27,514 nt of DNA from a virus. The DNA lies in the IMG/VR virus record IMGVR_UViG_3300048583_000268, positions 1-27,514 of that record; one strand, written 5' to 3'. The notes under the pieces were generated by a model. The model had not been told where the DNA came from and did no database searches. It was given only the letters and a program-made list of their open reading frames with translations. A program made the position numbers and the translations under genes. Each line of letters opens with the position of its first letter. Within the stretch, counting starts at the first letter, position 1. This document shows, in pieces, positions 3 through 15,166 of the stretch.

Positions 3-233
3 GAAAATGATATAGACTCATTAACTTTAGAAGATGTAATAGAAAATGCCGTATCAGTAAATACAGTAGAGAAATCTTTTTTATGGTTTAGTTACGATCA
101 AATACAAATATCAATGGAAAAAGAATTTATTTCTACAGTAAATTTTAATAAAAAACAAATAGAAACAAATATAGTTTTAACGACATTAGTAGCTAATATA
201 ATTACAAACAATTTAAATTATGTCTCAATTTAA
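3..233 (+). CDS. 3' end of an unidentified protein (partial)
   Basis: An open frame enters from the left edge and ends at TAA 231-233, leaving about 76 C-terminal residues. It is rich in Asn, Ile, Glu and Val, with a short aromatic patch (FLWFSYDQ) and a predicted helical end. It overlaps the start of the JAMM gene by 14 bases, so it belongs to the same transcription unit and may be functionally linked to the JAMM-E1 pair. In PRTRC-type clusters a ubiquitin-like or E2-like gene can sit beside such a pair, but I see no ubiquitin-like or E2 signature in this fragment. The family is not recognised; the reading frame itself is well supported by the overlap and by codon use like its neighbours. 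Confidence 0.6.
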   Translation, partial: ENDIDSLTLEDVIENAVSVNTVEKSFLWFSYDQIQISMEKEFISTVNFNKKQIETNIVLTTLVANIITNNLNYVSI

Positions 234-1326
234 AGAAACCACAACTACTATTAGAAAAGTAGAATTAATTAAAGTATCAGATAAAAAAGGAAGATTACTT
301 ATATCTGATAAAATGTTATTAGGAGTAACAAAAGCTCATATGTTAGTTCAATCAGGAATAGAATGGGCAGGGCTTATGTTATATAGTATAAAATCAGGAA
401 GTCTAAGAGATTTAGACAATATAGAATTAATAGCTAAAGATTTCATGTTTGTAAGCATAGGATCAGGAGGTACAATAGGAGCTAATACAGAAGTAAATAT
501 TACAGAACACATGCCTTCTTTTATAGATAAGTTTCCTAGTATATTTGAAGGAGTAGACAGAATAGGAATGTTACATTCTCATCATAGTATGGCTACTTTT
601 TTTAGTAATGTAGATGAAGCAGAATTGGAAGATAATACTAAGGATCATAACTTATTTTATGTGTCTTTAATTGTTAATTACAATGGAAGATTTAATGCTA
701 GATTAGCTTTTCCTATTTCTATTAACATAGATAGAAAAGATGAAAAAGAACAAATTATTAGTATGCAAGGAGCGTCTAAAAAAGTAGGTTATATAGACTT
801 AGAAATAATCATAGAACGAGACTCTTTAGTAAATGAAATAGAAAGAGAAGAAGAAAGAAAAATAAAAGAAGAAAAAGAAAAAGCAAAAAAACAACAACTA
901 AGTATAGGATTTAGCAATGTGGGAAGTGAAAGTGGAAGTAGTCTTACAAAAAAAGATGTTGATGCTTATAATAATGTTGCAGAAATTTTTATTAAGTTAT
1001 TTGCAAATAAGAAATTCTTAATGGAATGTGATGATAATTTTAATATGGGTAAAGTATATACATTATTAAAAAGTAATCATATTTCTGCAATAACAGATAA
1101 GAAGAAAAAAATCATAGAAAATAAATTTACTACTTTATTAGACATAGATTTTTATAATATTCCTAATTTTCATTTAGTAATTATTAAAACTTTACAAGGC
1201 AGACACGACTTAAAGAAGATGGATAAAGTAGGGGCTATAGATTTTATATTAGAGTTGGCTAAAACACAAACAGCTAATACAACTACACAACATAAATTTA
1301 ATGAAGTAGAACAATGGACTCTATAA
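220..1326 (+). CDS. JAMM/MPN-domain metalloprotease-like protein
   Basis: The 368-residue protein carries a complete JAMM zinc motif: candidate glutamate E48 (in GIEWAG), then H119-S-H121, seven residues, S129-x-x-D132. JAMM/MPN (Mov34, JAB) proteins are zinc isopeptidases that remove ubiquitin-like proteins from targets or trim their C-termini. The MPN fold spans roughly residues 10-185. A highly charged Glu/Lys helix follows (about 200-230, probably coiled coil), then an alpha-helical C-terminal domain (about 250-350) of unknown role. It overlaps the downstream E1-like gene by 13 bases, which argues for joint production. The JAB-ThiF pairing recalls PRTRC systems of Bacteroidota mobile elements and bacterial ubiquitin-like modification systems. 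All zinc ligands are present, so activity is plausible. The substrate is unknown. Confidence 0.85.
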   Translation: MSQFKETTTTIRKVELIKVSDKKGRLLISDKMLLGVTKAHMLVQSGIEWAGLMLYSIKSGSLRDLDNIELIAKDFMFVSIGSGGTIGANTEVNITEHMPSFIDKFPSIFEGVDRIGMLHSHHSMATFFSNVDEAELEDNTKDHNLFYVSLIVNYNGRFNARLAFPISINIDRKDEKEQIISMQGASKKVGYIDLEIIIERDSLVNEIEREEERKIKEEKEKAKKQQLSIGFSNVGSESGSSLTKKDVDAYNNVAEIFIKLFANKKFLMECDDNFNMGKVYTLLKSNHISAITDKKKKIIENKFTTLLDIDFYNIPNFHLVIIKTLQGRHDLKKMDKVGAIDFILELAKTQTANTTTQHKFNEVEQWTL

Positions 1327-2069
1327 TAGAAGAAGTAAAAGAACCCAGTTCAACAGACAGGTTTAAAAATGCTATTTGGTTGCCTGATACTTTAAAACAA
1401 GTATCTATAATAGGATTAGGAAATATAGGATCATGGGCCGCTTTGTATTTAAGTAGAATAGGATATGAACTAGATTTAGTAGACCCAGATAGAGTTTCTA
1501 TTGAAAATTTAGGAGGGCAACTTTATTCTGTAAACAGTGTATTTTCTTTTAAAGTAATTGAAACTAAAGATATATTAAGAGCTTTGTCTACAAGTAAAAA
1601 AGACGTAGCTTTTAGTCTAAGAAAAATAGAAGAAACTGGGTTAACAGGAGATATAATATTTTGTTGTGTGGATAACTTAGATGTTAGAAAGCATATATTT
1701 AAAAGATTTCTAACTGAAACAAGAGCAGTAATATTTATTGATGGTAGAGCAAATGCTCAAAATAATATGGTATTTGGTATTTCTAAATTTAGTGGTAACT
1801 TTGAAAAATATTCACAAGAATATTTAGAAAAACACTTACCAGAAGATAAGAGCATACCAGAAGAATCATGTAATTTTAAGTCTACTACTCATTGTGGAGC
1901 AATAACAGCAGGTTATATGGTGTCTCTTTTAAATAATTTAATATCAAATTATACTATGTATAAAGGAAATTATGGAGAACAAGACATAATTTATCCTGAG
2001 CCATTTAGTGTAAGATGTGATTTATTTAATCTAACATTAGAACATGACGAAGTTAAAGTTAGAGTATAA
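1314..2069 (+). CDS. ThiF/E1-like adenylyltransferase (PRTRC-type)
   Basis: This 251-residue protein has a Rossmann-type E1/ThiF core. The nucleotide-binding glycine motif is G34-L-G36-N-I-G39. The acidic loop is VDPDRVSIENL (D57, D59, N65), followed by Q69 and by lysine K80 where E1 enzymes bind ATP. The later CVDNLDVRKH motif (about 118-127) matches the conserved D-N-x-x-x-R segment of the family. C186 and C194 near the C-terminal part are candidates for a catalytic or zinc-binding cysteine. E1-like enzymes adenylate the C-terminus of a ubiquitin-like or sulfur-carrier protein. Its length fits the short PRTRC-type ThiF proteins rather than eukaryotic E1s. It overlaps the JAMM gene upstream and the next gene downstream. 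No ubiquitin-like substrate is visible in the window. Confidence 0.85.
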   Translation: MDSIIEEVKEPSSTDRFKNAIWLPDTLKQVSIIGLGNIGSWAALYLSRIGYELDLVDPDRVSIENLGGQLYSVNSVFSFKVIETKDILRALSTSKKDVAFSLRKIEETGLTGDIIFCCVDNLDVRKHIFKRFLTETRAVIFIDGRANAQNNMVFGISKFSGNFEKYSQEYLEKHLPEDKSIPEESCNFKSTTHCGAITAGYMVSLLNNLISNYTMYKGNYGEQDIIYPEPFSVRCDLFNLTLEHDEVKVRV

Positions 2070-2811
2070 ATATGGAGTACTTGATTTTATAGAATTAATA
2101 GACGATAGATATGTTTTAGTTAATGTAGGAACAAGTGATAGTTGTAGATTTGGTTTTTTAGAAAGAGTCTTTTTAACTTATAGTGGAAATGAAGCCACTT
2201 ATCATAATTATGGTATTATAAATACAAAACATAAACTACTATTTATTATTCTTATAAAAAAAGAATATGTAGATAAAATGTTAGTTCATTATACTAATCG
2301 TAATAGTACTTTCTTCTATGAGGATACTATTTTGTTTTTTAATGACTATCCTAGGGCAAAACCATTAATGAACTGTCTTTTAGCAGCAAGGGGTACATAT
2401 AAATTACTTATTAATAATGATTTCGGAATAGCGAGTACTACATTAATAAATAATTTATTTAACAATACACCAAATGAAGATATAGAATACTTTAATGATA
2501 TTGTACCTAGAAATTACTTTTCTATAAACAACGAAGATACGGCTAAGTTAATTAAAGAAAAGATGCTAATACAATACAAAAAAGATCTTATAGAAAGATA
2601 TAAATTAAAGGAAACTACAGTAAGCGTCACAGATAATACTGATGTAACTCCTACAATTGATTTAATAGATTTTTCATTTGATAACGATGAAAATATAGAT
2701 ATAGAAGATACAGGAGATGATGAGCCTTTACCAATAGACTGGGAAGATAGTGAAGTTCATGAACAAGATGAGACTCTAGATAACGATCTAGTACAACAAG
2801 TAAATGAGTGA
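2044..2811 (+). CDS. Unknown protein with acidic C-terminal tail, third gene of the JAMM-E1 set
   Basis: The family of this 255-residue protein is not recognised. The first 190 residues look globular, with mixed beta and helix and hydrophobic stretches such as LLFIILI at about 65-71. Cysteines are at C34 and C111. From about residue 205 to the end the protein is a low-complexity acidic tail dominated by Asp and Glu, typical of a disordered region that binds basic partners or mimics DNA. The start lies 26 bases inside the E1-like gene and the stop overlaps the exonuclease gene (ATGAGTGA), so expression is probably coupled to both. By position it could be an E2-like protein, a target or an adaptor of the JAMM-E1 pair. 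I do not see a convincing E2 active-site pattern. Confidence 0.65.
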   Translation: MTKLKLEYKYGVLDFIELIDDRYVLVNVGTSDSCRFGFLERVFLTYSGNEATYHNYGIINTKHKLLFIILIKKEYVDKMLVHYTNRNSTFFYEDTILFFNDYPRAKPLMNCLLAARGTYKLLINNDFGIASTTLINNLFNNTPNEDIEYFNDIVPRNYFSINNEDTAKLIKEKMLIQYKKDLIERYKLKETTVSVTDNTDVTPTIDLIDFSFDNDENIDIEDTGDDEPLPIDWEDSEVHEQDETLDNDLVQQVNE

Positions 2812-3616: not shown

Positions 3617-4420
3617 ATGTTAGCGGCCTACAAATATAATGATGTTAATACAATTGTATATTCTAGTTACATAGAATTACAATTTCCTAGTAGCAGTTAT
3701 TATAAAGTAGAAAAAACTGATGGCAGAATAAAAGAATTAAAATTTACTTCTAGCTTTTCTAAGAAAGATAATTATAATATAGTTCTTAACAGTACTTTTA
3801 CTGTAAATGACATACATTTAATTGTTAGAGACATTGAAATAAGTGAGCGTATAGAAGTAGTTCGATTAGTAATGGATAGCCACAATATAACAGCTATATT
3901 TATTCTTCCATTAATTTTTGAACCTTCTCTATTAAATAATATAAAACATATAATTGTAAATCCATACTTATACAATAATAGTACAAGAATGGATAAATTA
4001 ATGCTGTTAGTTTTAGACATTAACATTTCTTCTATACTAGAAACTACAATATACACAGAAAGAAAAAAACTAATTGAAGGATTTGTTGGCTATTACTACG
4101 AGATAAAAGAAGGGATTATAAAGGATGTAGACCTGATAACACAAGGAAAATATTCTTATATATCCGAAGAATCAAAGAAGAAAATACTAACTTATTACTT
4201 AGCTTTTTTCCAAGAGGATAAGGAACTATTTGCTAGTTCTGTTATCTATCAAGTGTTACATAGAAGTGAAAGTAGAAGAAAGAGATTAGAAGAAGATTAT
4301 AATGTTAAAATACCATTAGGACAGGATTTGTTTGAAGGGTTTGATGTAAAAAAAGAATCAATACCTTTTATACTAAACGACAATGAGTTTTCAAACACTG
4401 AAAGAGAAGTCTCTATCTAA
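3617..4420 (+). CDS. Hypothetical protein between exonuclease and uracil-DNA glycosylase
   Basis: No family is recognised for this 267-residue protein. The start codon follows the exonuclease stop directly (TAAATG), so translation is probably coupled. The N-terminal half is rich in beta-forming residues and aromatics; a central hydrophobic stretch (about residues 90-140, with IFILPLIF and LMLLVLDINI) looks like a buried core rather than a membrane span. The C-terminal part is helical and charged, with a basic ESRRKRLEED segment at about 217-226. The end overlaps the uracil-DNA glycosylase gene by 38 bases in another frame. Context suggests a role in DNA replication or repair. Confidence 0.6.
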   Translation: MLAAYKYNDVNTIVYSSYIELQFPSSSYYKVEKTDGRIKELKFTSSFSKKDNYNIVLNSTFTVNDIHLIVRDIEISERIEVVRLVMDSHNITAIFILPLIFEPSLLNNIKHIIVNPYLYNNSTRMDKLMLLVLDINISSILETTIYTERKKLIEGFVGYYYEIKEGIIKDVDLITQGKYSYISEESKKKILTYYLAFFQEDKELFASSVIYQVLHRSESRRKRLEEDYNVKIPLGQDLFEGFDVKKESIPFILNDNEFSNTEREVSI

Positions 4421-5234: not shown

Positions 5235-5458
5235 ACAACGAAATTTTTTATATATTCTCAATAGCAATAGATGTTTGTTTATTACTAATGTTAATATACT
5301 ACATTATGTTACAAAAAAGAGAAAATAATATGTTATATGAAGAGTATAACTCAGAATTAGACCTAGTAGAAGCTAATATAGTAAATATATTAAATGAAAA
5401 TAAATTAAATGATACCATAATAAACAAAATACTTTTTGAACTAAACCGACTAAAATAA
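5231..5458 (+). CDS. Small single-span membrane protein
   Basis: The 75-residue protein has one hydrophobic N-terminal segment (about residues 5-27, rich in Ile, Leu and Tyr) followed by a KR-containing border and a 45-residue charged helical tail. This pattern suggests a signal-anchor inner-membrane protein with its tail in the cytoplasm. It overlaps both neighbours: ATGA at its start and TAATG at its end. It resembles phage Rz/i-spanin-like or superinfection-exclusion microproteins only in layout. No lipobox and no second spanin-like frame were seen, so the role is open. Confidence 0.6.
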   Translation: MNNEIFYIFSIAIDVCLLLMLIYYIMLQKRENNMLYEEYNSELDLVEANIVNILNENKLNDTIINKILFELNRLK

Positions 5459-6015
5459 TGACAATATCAGAATATCAAATTGAAGCTAAAAGAACTTGTT
5501 CTGATTTAGGAAGTAAATATAGAAATGTGCTTCATACTAGTTCAGGATTTTTAACAGAGATAGGAGAAGTAATAGATGTATTTAAAAAAAGATTTGCATA
5601 CAAAAAACCAATAGATTATGTTAATCTAAAAGAAGAAATAGGAGATTGTTTATGGTATGATGCAAATGAATGTACTCTATTAGGTATTAATTTTTCAAAA
5701 GAAGATGAAGAAGAAATAGATTTTATATTTTTAGACATGAAATCTAGTATATCATCTATAGTAGATAATCTAGATGAAGATTCTAAAGTTGAACAGACAT
5801 TAGAAATAATAATAGAATTTATACATGAAGGAAGAAAATCAGCTGTTGAGGTATTTGCATTTTATAAATTCTTATGTTTTGTATGGGGCATTGACTTTAG
5901 TGATGCTTTACAAACTAATATAAATAAACTAAGAGTAAGATACCCAGAGAAGTTTACTACAGAAGCTGCAATAAATAGAAATTTAGATGCAGAAAGAGAA
6001 GAACTTGAAAAATAA
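5458..6015 (+). CDS. MazG-like nucleoside triphosphate pyrophosphohydrolase
   Basis: This 185-residue all-alpha protein has the MazG-type metal signature of two paired acidic motifs: E34-I-G-E37 and, 22 residues later, E60-I-G-D63 (EEIGDCLWY). MazG-like enzymes hydrolyse (d)NTPs to (d)NMPs and pyrophosphate, for example to clean the nucleotide pool or lower ppGpp. The C-terminal end, with INKLRVRYPEKFT and AAINRNLDAERE, is the pattern seen at the end of many phage MazG-like proteins. A short acidic middle segment separates the two helical parts. It starts inside its neighbour's stop (TAATG). A PurA/PurZ-like gene lies about 1.4 kb downstream on the same strand; in Z-genome phages a MazG-type enzyme (MazZ) supplies dGMP to PurZ, so substrate preference matters here. 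Confidence 0.8.
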   Translation: MTISEYQIEAKRTCSDLGSKYRNVLHTSSGFLTEIGEVIDVFKKRFAYKKPIDYVNLKEEIGDCLWYDANECTLLGINFSKEDEEEIDFIFLDMKSSISSIVDNLDEDSKVEQTLEIIIEFIHEGRKSAVEVFAFYKFLCFVWGIDFSDALQTNINKLRVRYPEKFTTEAAINRNLDAEREELEK

Positions 6016-6596: not shown

Positions 6597-7462
6597 TGGG
6601 AAACGCAAGTTATTCAACGTCTGATAGACTAACAAGAGCTACAGCACAAAATTATCACAATGTAACTACAGATAATAAAGTTTTTAATAATGTCTTTACT
6701 CAACAGAGCGTAGGACATGGGCATCATTTAATGAGTCCTCTTAATGTTATAAGAGAAAGTAGGTACTCTGATTTACACCCTAATGTTATTCCAGTACAAC
6801 TTTATCTAGATGTTACTGGAAGTATGATGGACATACCAAAAGTAATGTTAGCAGAAGGACTGCCTCATATAATGTCTACATTATTAGAAAAAACTAATAT
6901 AGATATAGCTCTTATGTTTGGAGCTATTGGGGATCATGAATACGACAGATACCCTTTACAAGTAGGACAATTTGAAAGTGGAGATGCAGAATTAGATAAT
7001 TGGTTAACAAAAACTTACTTAGAAGGAAACGGTGGTGGAAATGCAGGAGAAAGTTATTTGTTAGCATGGTTATTTTCTCATTTTTGTACTTTATCTGATG
7101 CCTGGTTAAAGAATAAAGTTAAAGGAAAAGTAATTACTATTGGTGATGAGCCTTGTTTGCGTACTATTTCAAAAAATAGACTTGTTGAGATTATAGGAAA
7201 CATAAGTATGCAAAGCGACACTATTACTATGGAAGAAGCTTATAAATTAGCTTCTGAAAAAAATGATGTTTATCACATTTTTATAGAACATGGTAGTAGA
7301 AGACTTAATCCTGAATGGAAAGAATTATTAGGGAATAATTTATTTGTTACTTCTGATATTAAAGAAATAGCAAATATTATTGCAGTTAATATTCTTAGTA
7401 AACCTGCTACTATAGTAGAAGAAAACAAACCTAGTAATGATGATACTTTTATAAGACGATGA
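6596..7462 (+). CDS. von Willebrand factor A (VWA) domain protein
   Basis: This 288-residue protein carries a metal-ion-dependent adhesion site. The signature D72-V-T-G-S76 follows a hydrophobic strand (VIPVQLYL), and a glycine-rich GNGGGNAGESY segment (about 143-153) supplies the second loop. A third strand and acid, VITIGDEP (about 179-186), completes the fold. VWA domains bind protein partners through Mg2+ and often work with AAA+ ATPases or in defence and virion assembly. No signal peptide is present, so the protein is cytoplasmic or virion-bound. Residues 1-60 are polar and have an HGHH cluster at 41-44. The gene overlaps both neighbours (TAATG and ATGA), tying it to the coiled-coil protein and the PurA/PurZ-like enzyme. 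The partner is unknown. Confidence 0.8.
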   Translation: MGNASYSTSDRLTRATAQNYHNVTTDNKVFNNVFTQQSVGHGHHLMSPLNVIRESRYSDLHPNVIPVQLYLDVTGSMMDIPKVMLAEGLPHIMSTLLEKTNIDIALMFGAIGDHEYDRYPLQVGQFESGDAELDNWLTKTYLEGNGGGNAGESYLLAWLFSHFCTLSDAWLKNKVKGKVITIGDEPCLRTISKNRLVEIIGNISMQSDTITMEEAYKLASEKNDVYHIFIEHGSRRLNPEWKELLGNNLFVTSDIKEIANIIAVNILSKPATIVEENKPSNDDTFIRR

Positions 7463-8556
7463 AAGCAAAAGCTGTAATAGGCTTAGGATTTGGAGACGAA
7501 GGTAAGGGGTTAGTAACCTCTTACCTTTGTTCTACTTCTAAAAAGCCACTAGTTGTTCGTTTTAATGGAGGGCATCAAGCAGGCCATACTGTAACAGAAG
7601 ATTTTGTACATACTTTTTCTAATTTTGGATCAGGTAGTCTAGATGGGCATCCTACTTATTGGAGTAGATTTTGTACTGTAGAGCCAGAAGGATTACTAAG
7701 AGAATTTGCTATACTTGATAAAAAAGGAGTTACTCCTGTATTATATATAGATAAAGAGTGCCCAATAACTACTCCTTATGATATATTACACAATAGAGTA
7801 TTACACTCTTTTGATAAAATCAGTACTGTAGGAGTTGGTTTTGGAGCTACATTAGAAAGGGAAGAAAATTTCTTTAGTTTAAAAGCAAGAGATTTAATGT
7901 ACCCTACTGTATTAAAATTAAAACTAAAACTAATAGAAGAAAAGTACTATAAGTTAATGCCAAACGAGACTGTAAAAATAAGTAAATTTTTAAATGCTTG
8001 TAATGCAATTCTTAAAATAGGGTCTATCAAAATTGTAAATAATATAGATGAAATACCTGATATATATAGCTATAATTTAATATTTGAAGGCGCACAAGGT
8101 ACTTTATTAGATCAACATTATGGATTCTTTCCATATGTAACTAGATCAAATACTACTTCTAAGAATATATTTGAATTATTAGAAAAAGACTTTAATGATA
8201 TTTGGAGTTTTACTGATATATACTATGTTACTAGAAGTTATTTAACTAAACATAGTAATTTGAAATTAAGAATGAGTTCTAGTAATAAGTACAAATATGA
8301 AATGGAACATAATAGAAACAATAAGCATCAAGGATCATTTACTACTGGTGTATTGAAAAAAGACCTATTTGAATATGCAATAGAGTGTAATTTTCAAGAA
8401 ATTTATGGAAAGATAATTAATAAAAATCTAGTAATTACACATTGTGATGTGTTTAATCTTAGTAGAAAATTTTCAAGATACTTTGGAGAAATGGATTATG
8501 TATTTAAGTCTTATGGGCCTAATAAAAAAGATATAAAACAGGTGTATGTACCATGA
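7459..8556 (+). CDS. purA: Adenylosuccinate synthetase family enzyme (PurA/PurZ-like)
   Basis: The 365-residue enzyme belongs to the adenylosuccinate synthetase family, which couples GTP or ATP hydrolysis to joining aspartate to a purine nucleotide. Visible motifs: P-loop GFGDEGKG (10-17) with catalytic D13; GGHQAGHTV (37-45) with catalytic H43, where bacterial PurA usually has GGHNAGHT; and FEGAQGTLLD followed by PYVTRSNTT. A later YVTRSYLTKH and the N-x-x-N-x-x-QGSFTTG region resemble the shorter archaeal/phage branch more than E. coli PurA, and the length is below the usual 430. The phage enzyme PurZ (2-aminoadenylosuccinate synthetase) is a relative in which the P-loop Asp is replaced; here the Asp is kept. 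The enzyme may therefore act on IMP like PurA or be an intermediate PurZ0-like form. Confidence 0.85.
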   Translation: MKAKAVIGLGFGDEGKGLVTSYLCSTSKKPLVVRFNGGHQAGHTVTEDFVHTFSNFGSGSLDGHPTYWSRFCTVEPEGLLREFAILDKKGVTPVLYIDKECPITTPYDILHNRVLHSFDKISTVGVGFGATLEREENFFSLKARDLMYPTVLKLKLKLIEEKYYKLMPNETVKISKFLNACNAILKIGSIKIVNNIDEIPDIYSYNLIFEGAQGTLLDQHYGFFPYVTRSNTTSKNIFELLEKDFNDIWSFTDIYYVTRSYLTKHSNLKLRMSSSNKYKYEMEHNRNNKHQGSFTTGVLKKDLFEYAIECNFQEIYGKIINKNLVITHCDVFNLSRKFSRYFGEMDYVFKSYGPNKKDIKQVYVP

Positions 8557-14521: not shown

Positions 14522-15115
14522 TTAATCTATTGTTAGATTAGTCCAACATCTTTCTTTTTTAATATTAGAAATTTGTGATGGTTTTACATTAAATTGTAAA
14601 GCTAAATCTTTACCTTTTCTGCCTTCTTTTAAAAGAGTTTTAATTTCTCTTACTTGTTCAGCAGTTAGTTTACTATTAAGCTGTCCTTCTGCTATTTTTC
14701 TAATCCTTGTTTCAGACATTTTCTTTTTGCTTTCATCTGTATATTTAAAATCCTTTCTACTATCTGAAATTAATTTTTTAGTTTCATCTTTTCTTTTTCT
14801 TTCAATATGATAATCTGTTCCTGCAATTTTAAGAATATTAAATTCAGAATTATGATTATCTATATACCATTGTTCTTTTTTTATAAGTTCAATAGCATCT
14901 TCTACTTTTTCTAATATTTCTATATACAAACTATCTACTCCATATTTGTTTACAAAATTTTGTAAGATAGTATTTACATGAATACCTTTTCTTAATTTCC
15001 AATCATGTGCATATTTTCTATTATTAAAATGATATGCTGAACCAATATAACATTTTTCATTTATATTATTCTTAATTACATATATACAACTTCCTTTATA
15101 ATCTGGTGCTTTCAT
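14522..15115 (-). CDS. GIY-YIG homing endonuclease, apparently free-standing
   Basis: From ATG 15115 the protein has 197 residues; an in-frame TTG at 15130 would add five. The N-terminal GIY-YIG nuclease has CIYVIK followed by KCYIGSA (about 10-26), a basic R-x-x-x-H segment (NNRKYAHDW) and the catalytic glutamate in KKEQWYI (about 79-85). Two NUMOD3-like DNA-binding repeats follow (DETKKLISDSRK and DESKKKMSETR), then a helix-turn-helix (about 150-190, LTAEQVREIKTLL to SQISNIK) of the kind found in homing endonucleases. Such enzymes cut a specific DNA site to spread their own gene. It lies between two genes that seem to hold the two halves of one domain, and it is in frame with the upstream 345-residue gene. 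An intron location was considered, but no clear intron core was recognised. Confidence 0.88.
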   Translation of the reverse strand: MKAPDYKGSCIYVIKNNINEKCYIGSAYHFNNRKYAHDWKLRKGIHVNTILQNFVNKYGVDSLYIEILEKVEDAIELIKKEQWYIDNHNSEFNILKIAGTDYHIERKRKDETKKLISDSRKDFKYTDESKKKMSETRIRKIAEGQLNSKLTAEQVREIKTLLKEGRKGKDLALQFNVKPSQISNIKKERCWTNLTID

Positions 15116-15166
15116 AATACAAAGATACAAAATACATTCTGATTTACCAAATAAATTTCAATATAT

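Follow-up and report, generated by a model that had tools for sequence, protein, structure and literature searches.

To our knowledge, ubiquitin-like conjugation in bacteria has so far been known mainly as a host defence or from plasmids, and phages have been credited only with a pair of a ubiquitin-like protein (Ubl) and a JAMM peptidase in their tail genes; we know of no full set in a phage. crAss-like phages, to which the present locus led us, rank among the commonest viruses of the human gut. Bacterial operons of Ubl, E1, E2 and JAB genes, as well as the Ubl-JAB pair in lambda-like tail genes, were described by Iyer et al. 2006 (PMC1779556). In our reading, the PRTRC elements fit class 6d of that work (PMC1779556), and their genes run in the order Ubl (protein C), B (E2 family D), A (JAMM) and ThiF (E1). 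The host defences BilABCD and type II CBASS (Cap2-Cap3) employ E1, E2 and JAMM proteins for conjugation chemistry of the Ubl type. In the open-access papers that we searched, among them Iyer 2006, Shkoporov 2018 and Yutin 2021, we found no description of such a module in crAss-like phages.

The DNA analyzed here, hereafter the window, is an entire viral contig of 27,514 bases. It encodes a giant minus-strand protein of 3704 residues, a 600-residue stretch of which matches crAss RNA polymerase subunits (E 1e-16 for the best among the matches listed), and this similarity identifies the phage as a member of the Crassvirales or a close relative. At the left end of the window, the plus strand carries, in order, a cut gene, a JAMM gene, an E1 gene and the genes for a 255-residue protein, an exonuclease, a 267-residue protein and a uracil-DNA glycosylase (UDG); all module features located below are on this strand. 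The cut gene (3..233, the C-terminal 76 residues of its product) overlaps the JAMM gene (220..1326) by 14 nt, the JAMM gene overlaps the E1 gene (1314..2069) by 13 nt, and the E1 gene overlaps that of the 255-residue protein (2044..2811), which has an acidic C terminus, by 26 nt. The original prediction, which had placed the genes at these positions and had described a complete JAMM motif, an overlapping ThiF/E1 gene and a third protein with an acidic tail, was confirmed on the sequence in all of these points.

The JAMM gene encodes a JAMM/MPN+ metallopeptidase of 368 residues, belonging to the crAss001 gp77 family by family profile and catalytic residues. Its motif reads E48...H119-S-H121-x7-S129-x2-D132, a complete instance of the defining pattern E-Xn-H-S/T-H-X7-S-X2-D, with E48 encoded at 361-363 and the core HSHHSMATFFSNVD, holding H119, H121, S129 and D132, at 574..615. 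The protein scored 15.7 bits against Pfam, which is below the 25-bit cut-off, and 67 bits against a profile of the crAss JAMM family. Across about 80 distinct homologues, the catalytic residues were found to be almost unchanged (E in 78/78, the two H in 78/79 and 77/77, S in 78/79 and D in 79/79), and the enzyme is predicted to be a Ubl-processing and deconjugating peptidase. The JAMM frame is in two pieces, about 0.3-1.2 kb apart, at four loci of relatives (L057, L075, L082 and L083), which suggests introns or homing endonuclease insertions.

The next gene encodes an E1/ThiF-like adenylating enzyme of 251 residues (crAss001 gp76 family), which matched Pfam ThiF with 58 bits (1e-15; cut-off, 28.1) and PHROG 15670 at 2.7e-21. 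By profile, the closest solved structures were UBA5, PaaA, MccB, ThiF and MoeB, and the ThiF domain contains the GxGxxG, DxD, K, D and Cys elements of the E1/ThiF superfamily. Within the nucleotide-binding loop GLGNIG (residues 34-39, 1413..1430), G34 and G36 are invariant in 83/83 homologues, and Arg16, Asp59, Lys80, Asp120 and Cys186 are likewise present in each of the 83 sequences. The first four of these we take to correspond to Arg14, Asp62, Lys86 and Asp130 of MoeB. An unusual substitution occurs at Gly68 (1515..1517), a position that presumably matches the ATP-contacting Arg73 of MoeB-type enzymes (NxxRQ) and that is Gly in 81 of the 83 homologues. Cys186 (1869..1871) lines up with the Cys of PRTRC ThiF in an alignment made by eye, and its conservation makes it a candidate for the E1 thioester cysteine. 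Judged by the conservation of their catalytic residues, both JAMM and E1 appear to be functional. The E1 varies widely in length across genera, that of crAss001 (L003, 13395-14546) having more than 100 extra N-terminal residues relative to the window E1; at another locus (L079, 7989-13019), the E2-like and E1 genes are duplicated in tandem.

Translated searches of phage records located JAMM beside E1 in Flavobacterium phages and in members of the Steigviridae such as crAss001 and DAC15, and 80 further loci emerged when viral contigs were searched with the E1 alignment. In almost all loci, a protein of about 300 to 600 residues, termed E2-like here, precedes JAMM, and a Ubl-type protein precedes the E2-like one, giving the order Ubl, E2-like, JAMM, E1, which is also that of the cultured phages crAss001, DAC15 and FpV4. 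Profiles detected both Ubl and E2-like proteins in 86 of 92 E1-holding loci, a set that includes some near-duplicate contigs or records, and the stop of the Ubl gene lies less than 200 nt from the start of the E2-like gene in 82 of those 86. A second set of 69 distinct loci was then picked by JAMM alone, to avoid selection on E1. E1 adjoins JAMM in all 65 of those whose contig was long enough; Ubl and E2-like proteins were found by profile in 52 loci of the set, and divergent ones were read by eye in 8 others. Since the whole block is conserved in loci picked by JAMM, a chance pairing of JAMM with E1 is excluded. JAMM and E1 might still be viewed as unrelated neighbours or degenerate passengers, a view to which the low identity between phages would lend itself (24-33% to the window in the E1 alignment), but strict synteny and catalytic conservation across about 80 distinct sequences leave it with almost no credibility. 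A conserved lack of Ubl and E2 partners in related genomes had been named in advance as the outcome that would speak against the original prediction. The opposite was found, since relatives carry these partners directly upstream of JAMM, and a conjugation system run by the phage itself, one of the functions put forward at the time, gains support from them.

When 8 phage genomes were searched with the profiles, all four proteins were detected in crAss001 and FpV4, and all four were absent from crAss002, Carjivirus communis, cr1_1, cr118_1, Cellulophaga phi14:2 and cr116_1, the single match to the Ubl alignment in cr116_1 being to the tail only. This pattern of joint presence and absence indicated that the module is optional in Crassvirales, even inside Steigviridae. 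Its slot lies in the replication gene cluster, with primase on one side and UDG on the other. At the corresponding locus of cr116_1 (L191, NC_055882.1, 7300-11764), we observed a tail-only Ubl remnant together with rIIB and an rIIA gene interrupted by an intron endonuclease.

By comparison with relatives, of which the nearest, L015, has a 40% identical E1, the window would contain the two right-hand genes of the module, with the Ubl gene and the core of the E2 gene lying off its left edge. The cut gene had been suggested as a partner, and by position it does occupy the E2-like slot (crAss001 gp78 family), but by sequence it does not match the E2-like profile significantly, as 63 of 1000 shuffled sequences scored as high. 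The 255-residue protein, the other candidate for a Ubl or an E2, proved to be neither by any test run. Its place in the window is that of the slot after E1 in relatives, and it is listed for its position only: searches of Pfam, PHROGs, NCBIfam, PADLOC and phage records gave no convincing match, and no relative of it was found even in the nearest locus. Going by the sequences, the module in the window is real, conserved and probably an active ubiquitin-like conjugation set, seen in part.

In the Ubl of relatives, the first 70-100 residues close with a (K)SG motif, whose terminal Gly is the sole invariant column in 63 aligned sequences. This protein matched no relevant Pfam family, and sequence searches of Pfam and the PDB returned no credible match. 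The AlphaFold2 model of the DAC15 Ubl shows pLDDT values of 84-98 at residues 1-90 that drop under 50 across the KSG linker (residues 92-95), with elements in the order beta-beta-alpha-beta...beta and then a helical domain past the linker. In Foldseek, SUMO1, ubiquitin-like and DIX domains matched the model at a probability of 1.00 and an E value of about 1e-3. In VIA-align, nearly all rows were ubiquitin-like, and ubiquitin, NEDD8, ISG15 and FAT10 aligned over residues 1-93 with Z values of 7-8, in a range (below 8) that may reflect merely a common arrangement. Based on the model, the Ubl of relatives is predicted to adopt a beta-grasp fold with a C-terminal Gly.

After the motif Gly, 11 of 77 distinct Ubls stop within 0-5 residues, and the others continue with a tail of 21-252 residues. 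The stand-alone tail protein of cr116_1 begins MSRKELY, and crAss001 gp79, whose motif Gly is Gly90, reads KSG-A-MSRAEAY at this place; because the start of the former aligns directly after KSG-A, the motif marks a domain boundary and so a likely cleavage site. The presence of a tail on most Ubls raises the alternative that the module serves processing only, JAMM cutting Ubl-tail fusions to mature them or to time the release of the tail, with little or no conjugation. cr116_1, which keeps the tail alone and has lost the other parts, would agree with this, as would the Ubl and JAB pair of phage lambda, which is accompanied by neither E1 nor E2 (PMC1779556). However, the active sites of E1 and the E2-like protein are invariant across the family, and the 11 essentially tailless Ubls come from loci that were selected for E1, so we regard processing alone as improbable. 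As for the tails themselves (for example, L015, 6582-7184; L003, 17128-17805), they open with a helical region that looks SAP/Rho_N-like in some loci, and in Pfam individual sequences from the Ubl alignment gave matches to Rho_N (1.9e-4) and to the C-terminal domain of ribosomal L7/L12 (3.1e-10).

All 78 aligned sequences of the E2-like protein share four residues, His135, Cys151, Gly153 and Glu188 (numbered as in DAC15); divergent members carry HPHVSxxGxPCLGD, and that of L015 has CTNG in place of the usual CxG. This family, too, matched no relevant Pfam family and gave no credible match in sequence searches of Pfam and the PDB; for one divergent protein, a sequence search returned two matches only, both to E2 enzymes, the better being UBE2W (E 0.12). 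The AlphaFold model (pLDDT 86) opens with a helix, after which come strands, the HSH motif, the Cys and further helices, in the order known from E2s. Foldseek found no significant match for it in the PDB, and among viral models it matched crAss-like homologues. In VIA, the best structural matches were nearly all E2, UBC or RWD domains, headed by E2-25K (Z 5.3), a Caenorhabditis elegans UBC (5.2), Ube2K (4.8) and RWD domains, with UFC1, Atg3 and a bacterial E2 ranking lower; these matches are weak (Z about 5), and such low values could reflect merely a common arrangement. Despite the low Z, the agreement of the top rows, together with the HPH motif and the gene linkage, favours reading the protein as a putative E2.

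The E2-like protein also bears on a reading in which the module is a sulfur-carrier pathway, with a ThiS/MoaD-like Ubl adenylated by E1 for sulfur transfer and JAMM merely freeing its C terminus. The E1 does resemble ThiF and MoeB, the beta-grasp fold is common to ThiS and MoaD, and JAMM release is thought to occur for some carriers (PMC1779556). Yet the linked E2-like protein has an invariant Cys, and no thiamine, molybdopterin or sulfur genes are seen among the annotated neighbours; we rate this reading as very improbable. crAss001 gp76-gp79 are annotated as a thiamine biosynthesis protein, a metalloprotease and two hypothetical proteins, and names of the type "thiamine biosynthesis protein" in databases reflect a shared fold only.

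Compared with the described systems, the phage module has the same gene order as PRTRC and a related E1 (97.7% for the crAss E1 profile against PRTRC ThiF in a profile comparison), and PRTRC protein C also ends in Gly (KG or NG), with a tail in some cases. In contrast, PRTRC elements reside on plasmids rather than in a phage replication locus, they have ParB, E and F partners that were not seen with the phage module, and their protein B lacks the HSH/HPH motif found before the Cys of the phage E2-like protein. No relation was detected between the phage Ubl and PRTRC C or between the E2-like protein and PRTRC B by profile comparison. PRTRC_B in the window and Prok-E2_D in crAss001 gave no match, and neither did the control genomes. 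The comparison with PRTRC made at the outset holds for gene order and E1, but the window proteins themselves fall outside PRTRC, with 14 bits for PRTRC_A (cut-off, 101.8) and 31.3 for PRTRC_ThiF (cut-off, 144.75). The lambda tail genes TAPI/TAPK resemble the module in having a phage Ubl with a C-terminal extra domain and linkage to JAMM (PMC1779556) but have neither E1 nor E2 and belong to a tail assembly locus, not a replication locus. A BilA-D or Cap2-Cap3 set, also considered originally, was not borne out: the chemistry is of the same type, but the E1s of these host defences are fused or larger, and PADLOC gave weak matches to the window E1 (E1-E2, 1.3e-9; BilD, 0.039) and none for other components of the window or crAss001. 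crAss001 gp76-gp79 and their homologues constitute the same module, which neither their annotation nor the papers searched treat as a conjugation system, in a phage to which that of the window is a distant relative.

We consider it quite likely that JAMM and E1 belong to a phage-encoded, reversible ubiquitin-like conjugation pathway consisting of Ubl, E2, JAMM and E1, and we infer its chemistry and function as follows. The Ubl would be made as a precursor, its beta-grasp domain ending in (K)SG and followed, in most phages, by the separate tail. JAMM would cut this precursor after the motif Gly. E1, as its conserved active-site residues suggest, would adenylate the freed C-terminal Gly and then load the Ubl on Cys186. 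Judging by motif, fold and linkage, its next carrier would be the E2-like protein, through the invariant Cys (Cys151 in DAC15) that adjoins the HSH/HPH motif. E2 would finally join the Ubl to a lysine of the target, and JAMM could take it off again. The module recurs widely among crAss-like gut phages and related viruses and looks like a complete ubiquitin-type tagging set; if such a full pathway is true of crAss-like phages, then phages themselves tag proteins. It can be tested at once, since the cultured crAss001, DAC15 and FpV4 carry all four genes.

Because primase and UDG flank the genes within the replication cluster, the putative target is most likely a replication or host-takeover protein. 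cr116_1 has rIIA and rIIB in the module slot, between primase and UDG, and rIIA/rIIB were absent from 12 of 12 module-positive genomes tested. The rII genes protect T4 against host exclusion, and this role, combined with their occurrence at the module site, gives a hint, from one case, of counter-defence: the module may modify or deconjugate host defence proteins (CBASS, Bil) or, like rIIA-rIIB of T4-like phages, protect against premature lysis. Host Ubl conjugation is used in CBASS and Bil defence. The replacement is a single one, though, with rII genes in 1 of 18 phages tested, and the slot lies amid replication genes; we judge counter-defence to be possible but unlikely. Since it concerns the target, it is compatible with the conjugation pathway. 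Also possible but unlikely is the broader proposal that a complete E1-E2-Ubl-JAMM set of Crassvirales and relatives tags host or phage proteins during infection as a weapon of takeover or counter-defence, interchangeable with rIIA-rIIB, and that the Ubl-tail protein is the viral counterpart of the ubiquitin-ribosomal protein fusions.

Some other genes of the window deserve mention. The 267-residue protein (3617-4420) has no assigned family and keeps its place beside UDG even in distantly related loci (L015, E 1e-20). An adenylosuccinate synthetase-like gene (7459-8556; PHROG 1211, 1.3e-46) and a MazG-like gene (5458-6015) raise the possibility of a modified-base pathway. Finally, a GIY-YIG-type homing endonuclease is encoded at 14522-15130, flanked by two minus-strand genes.
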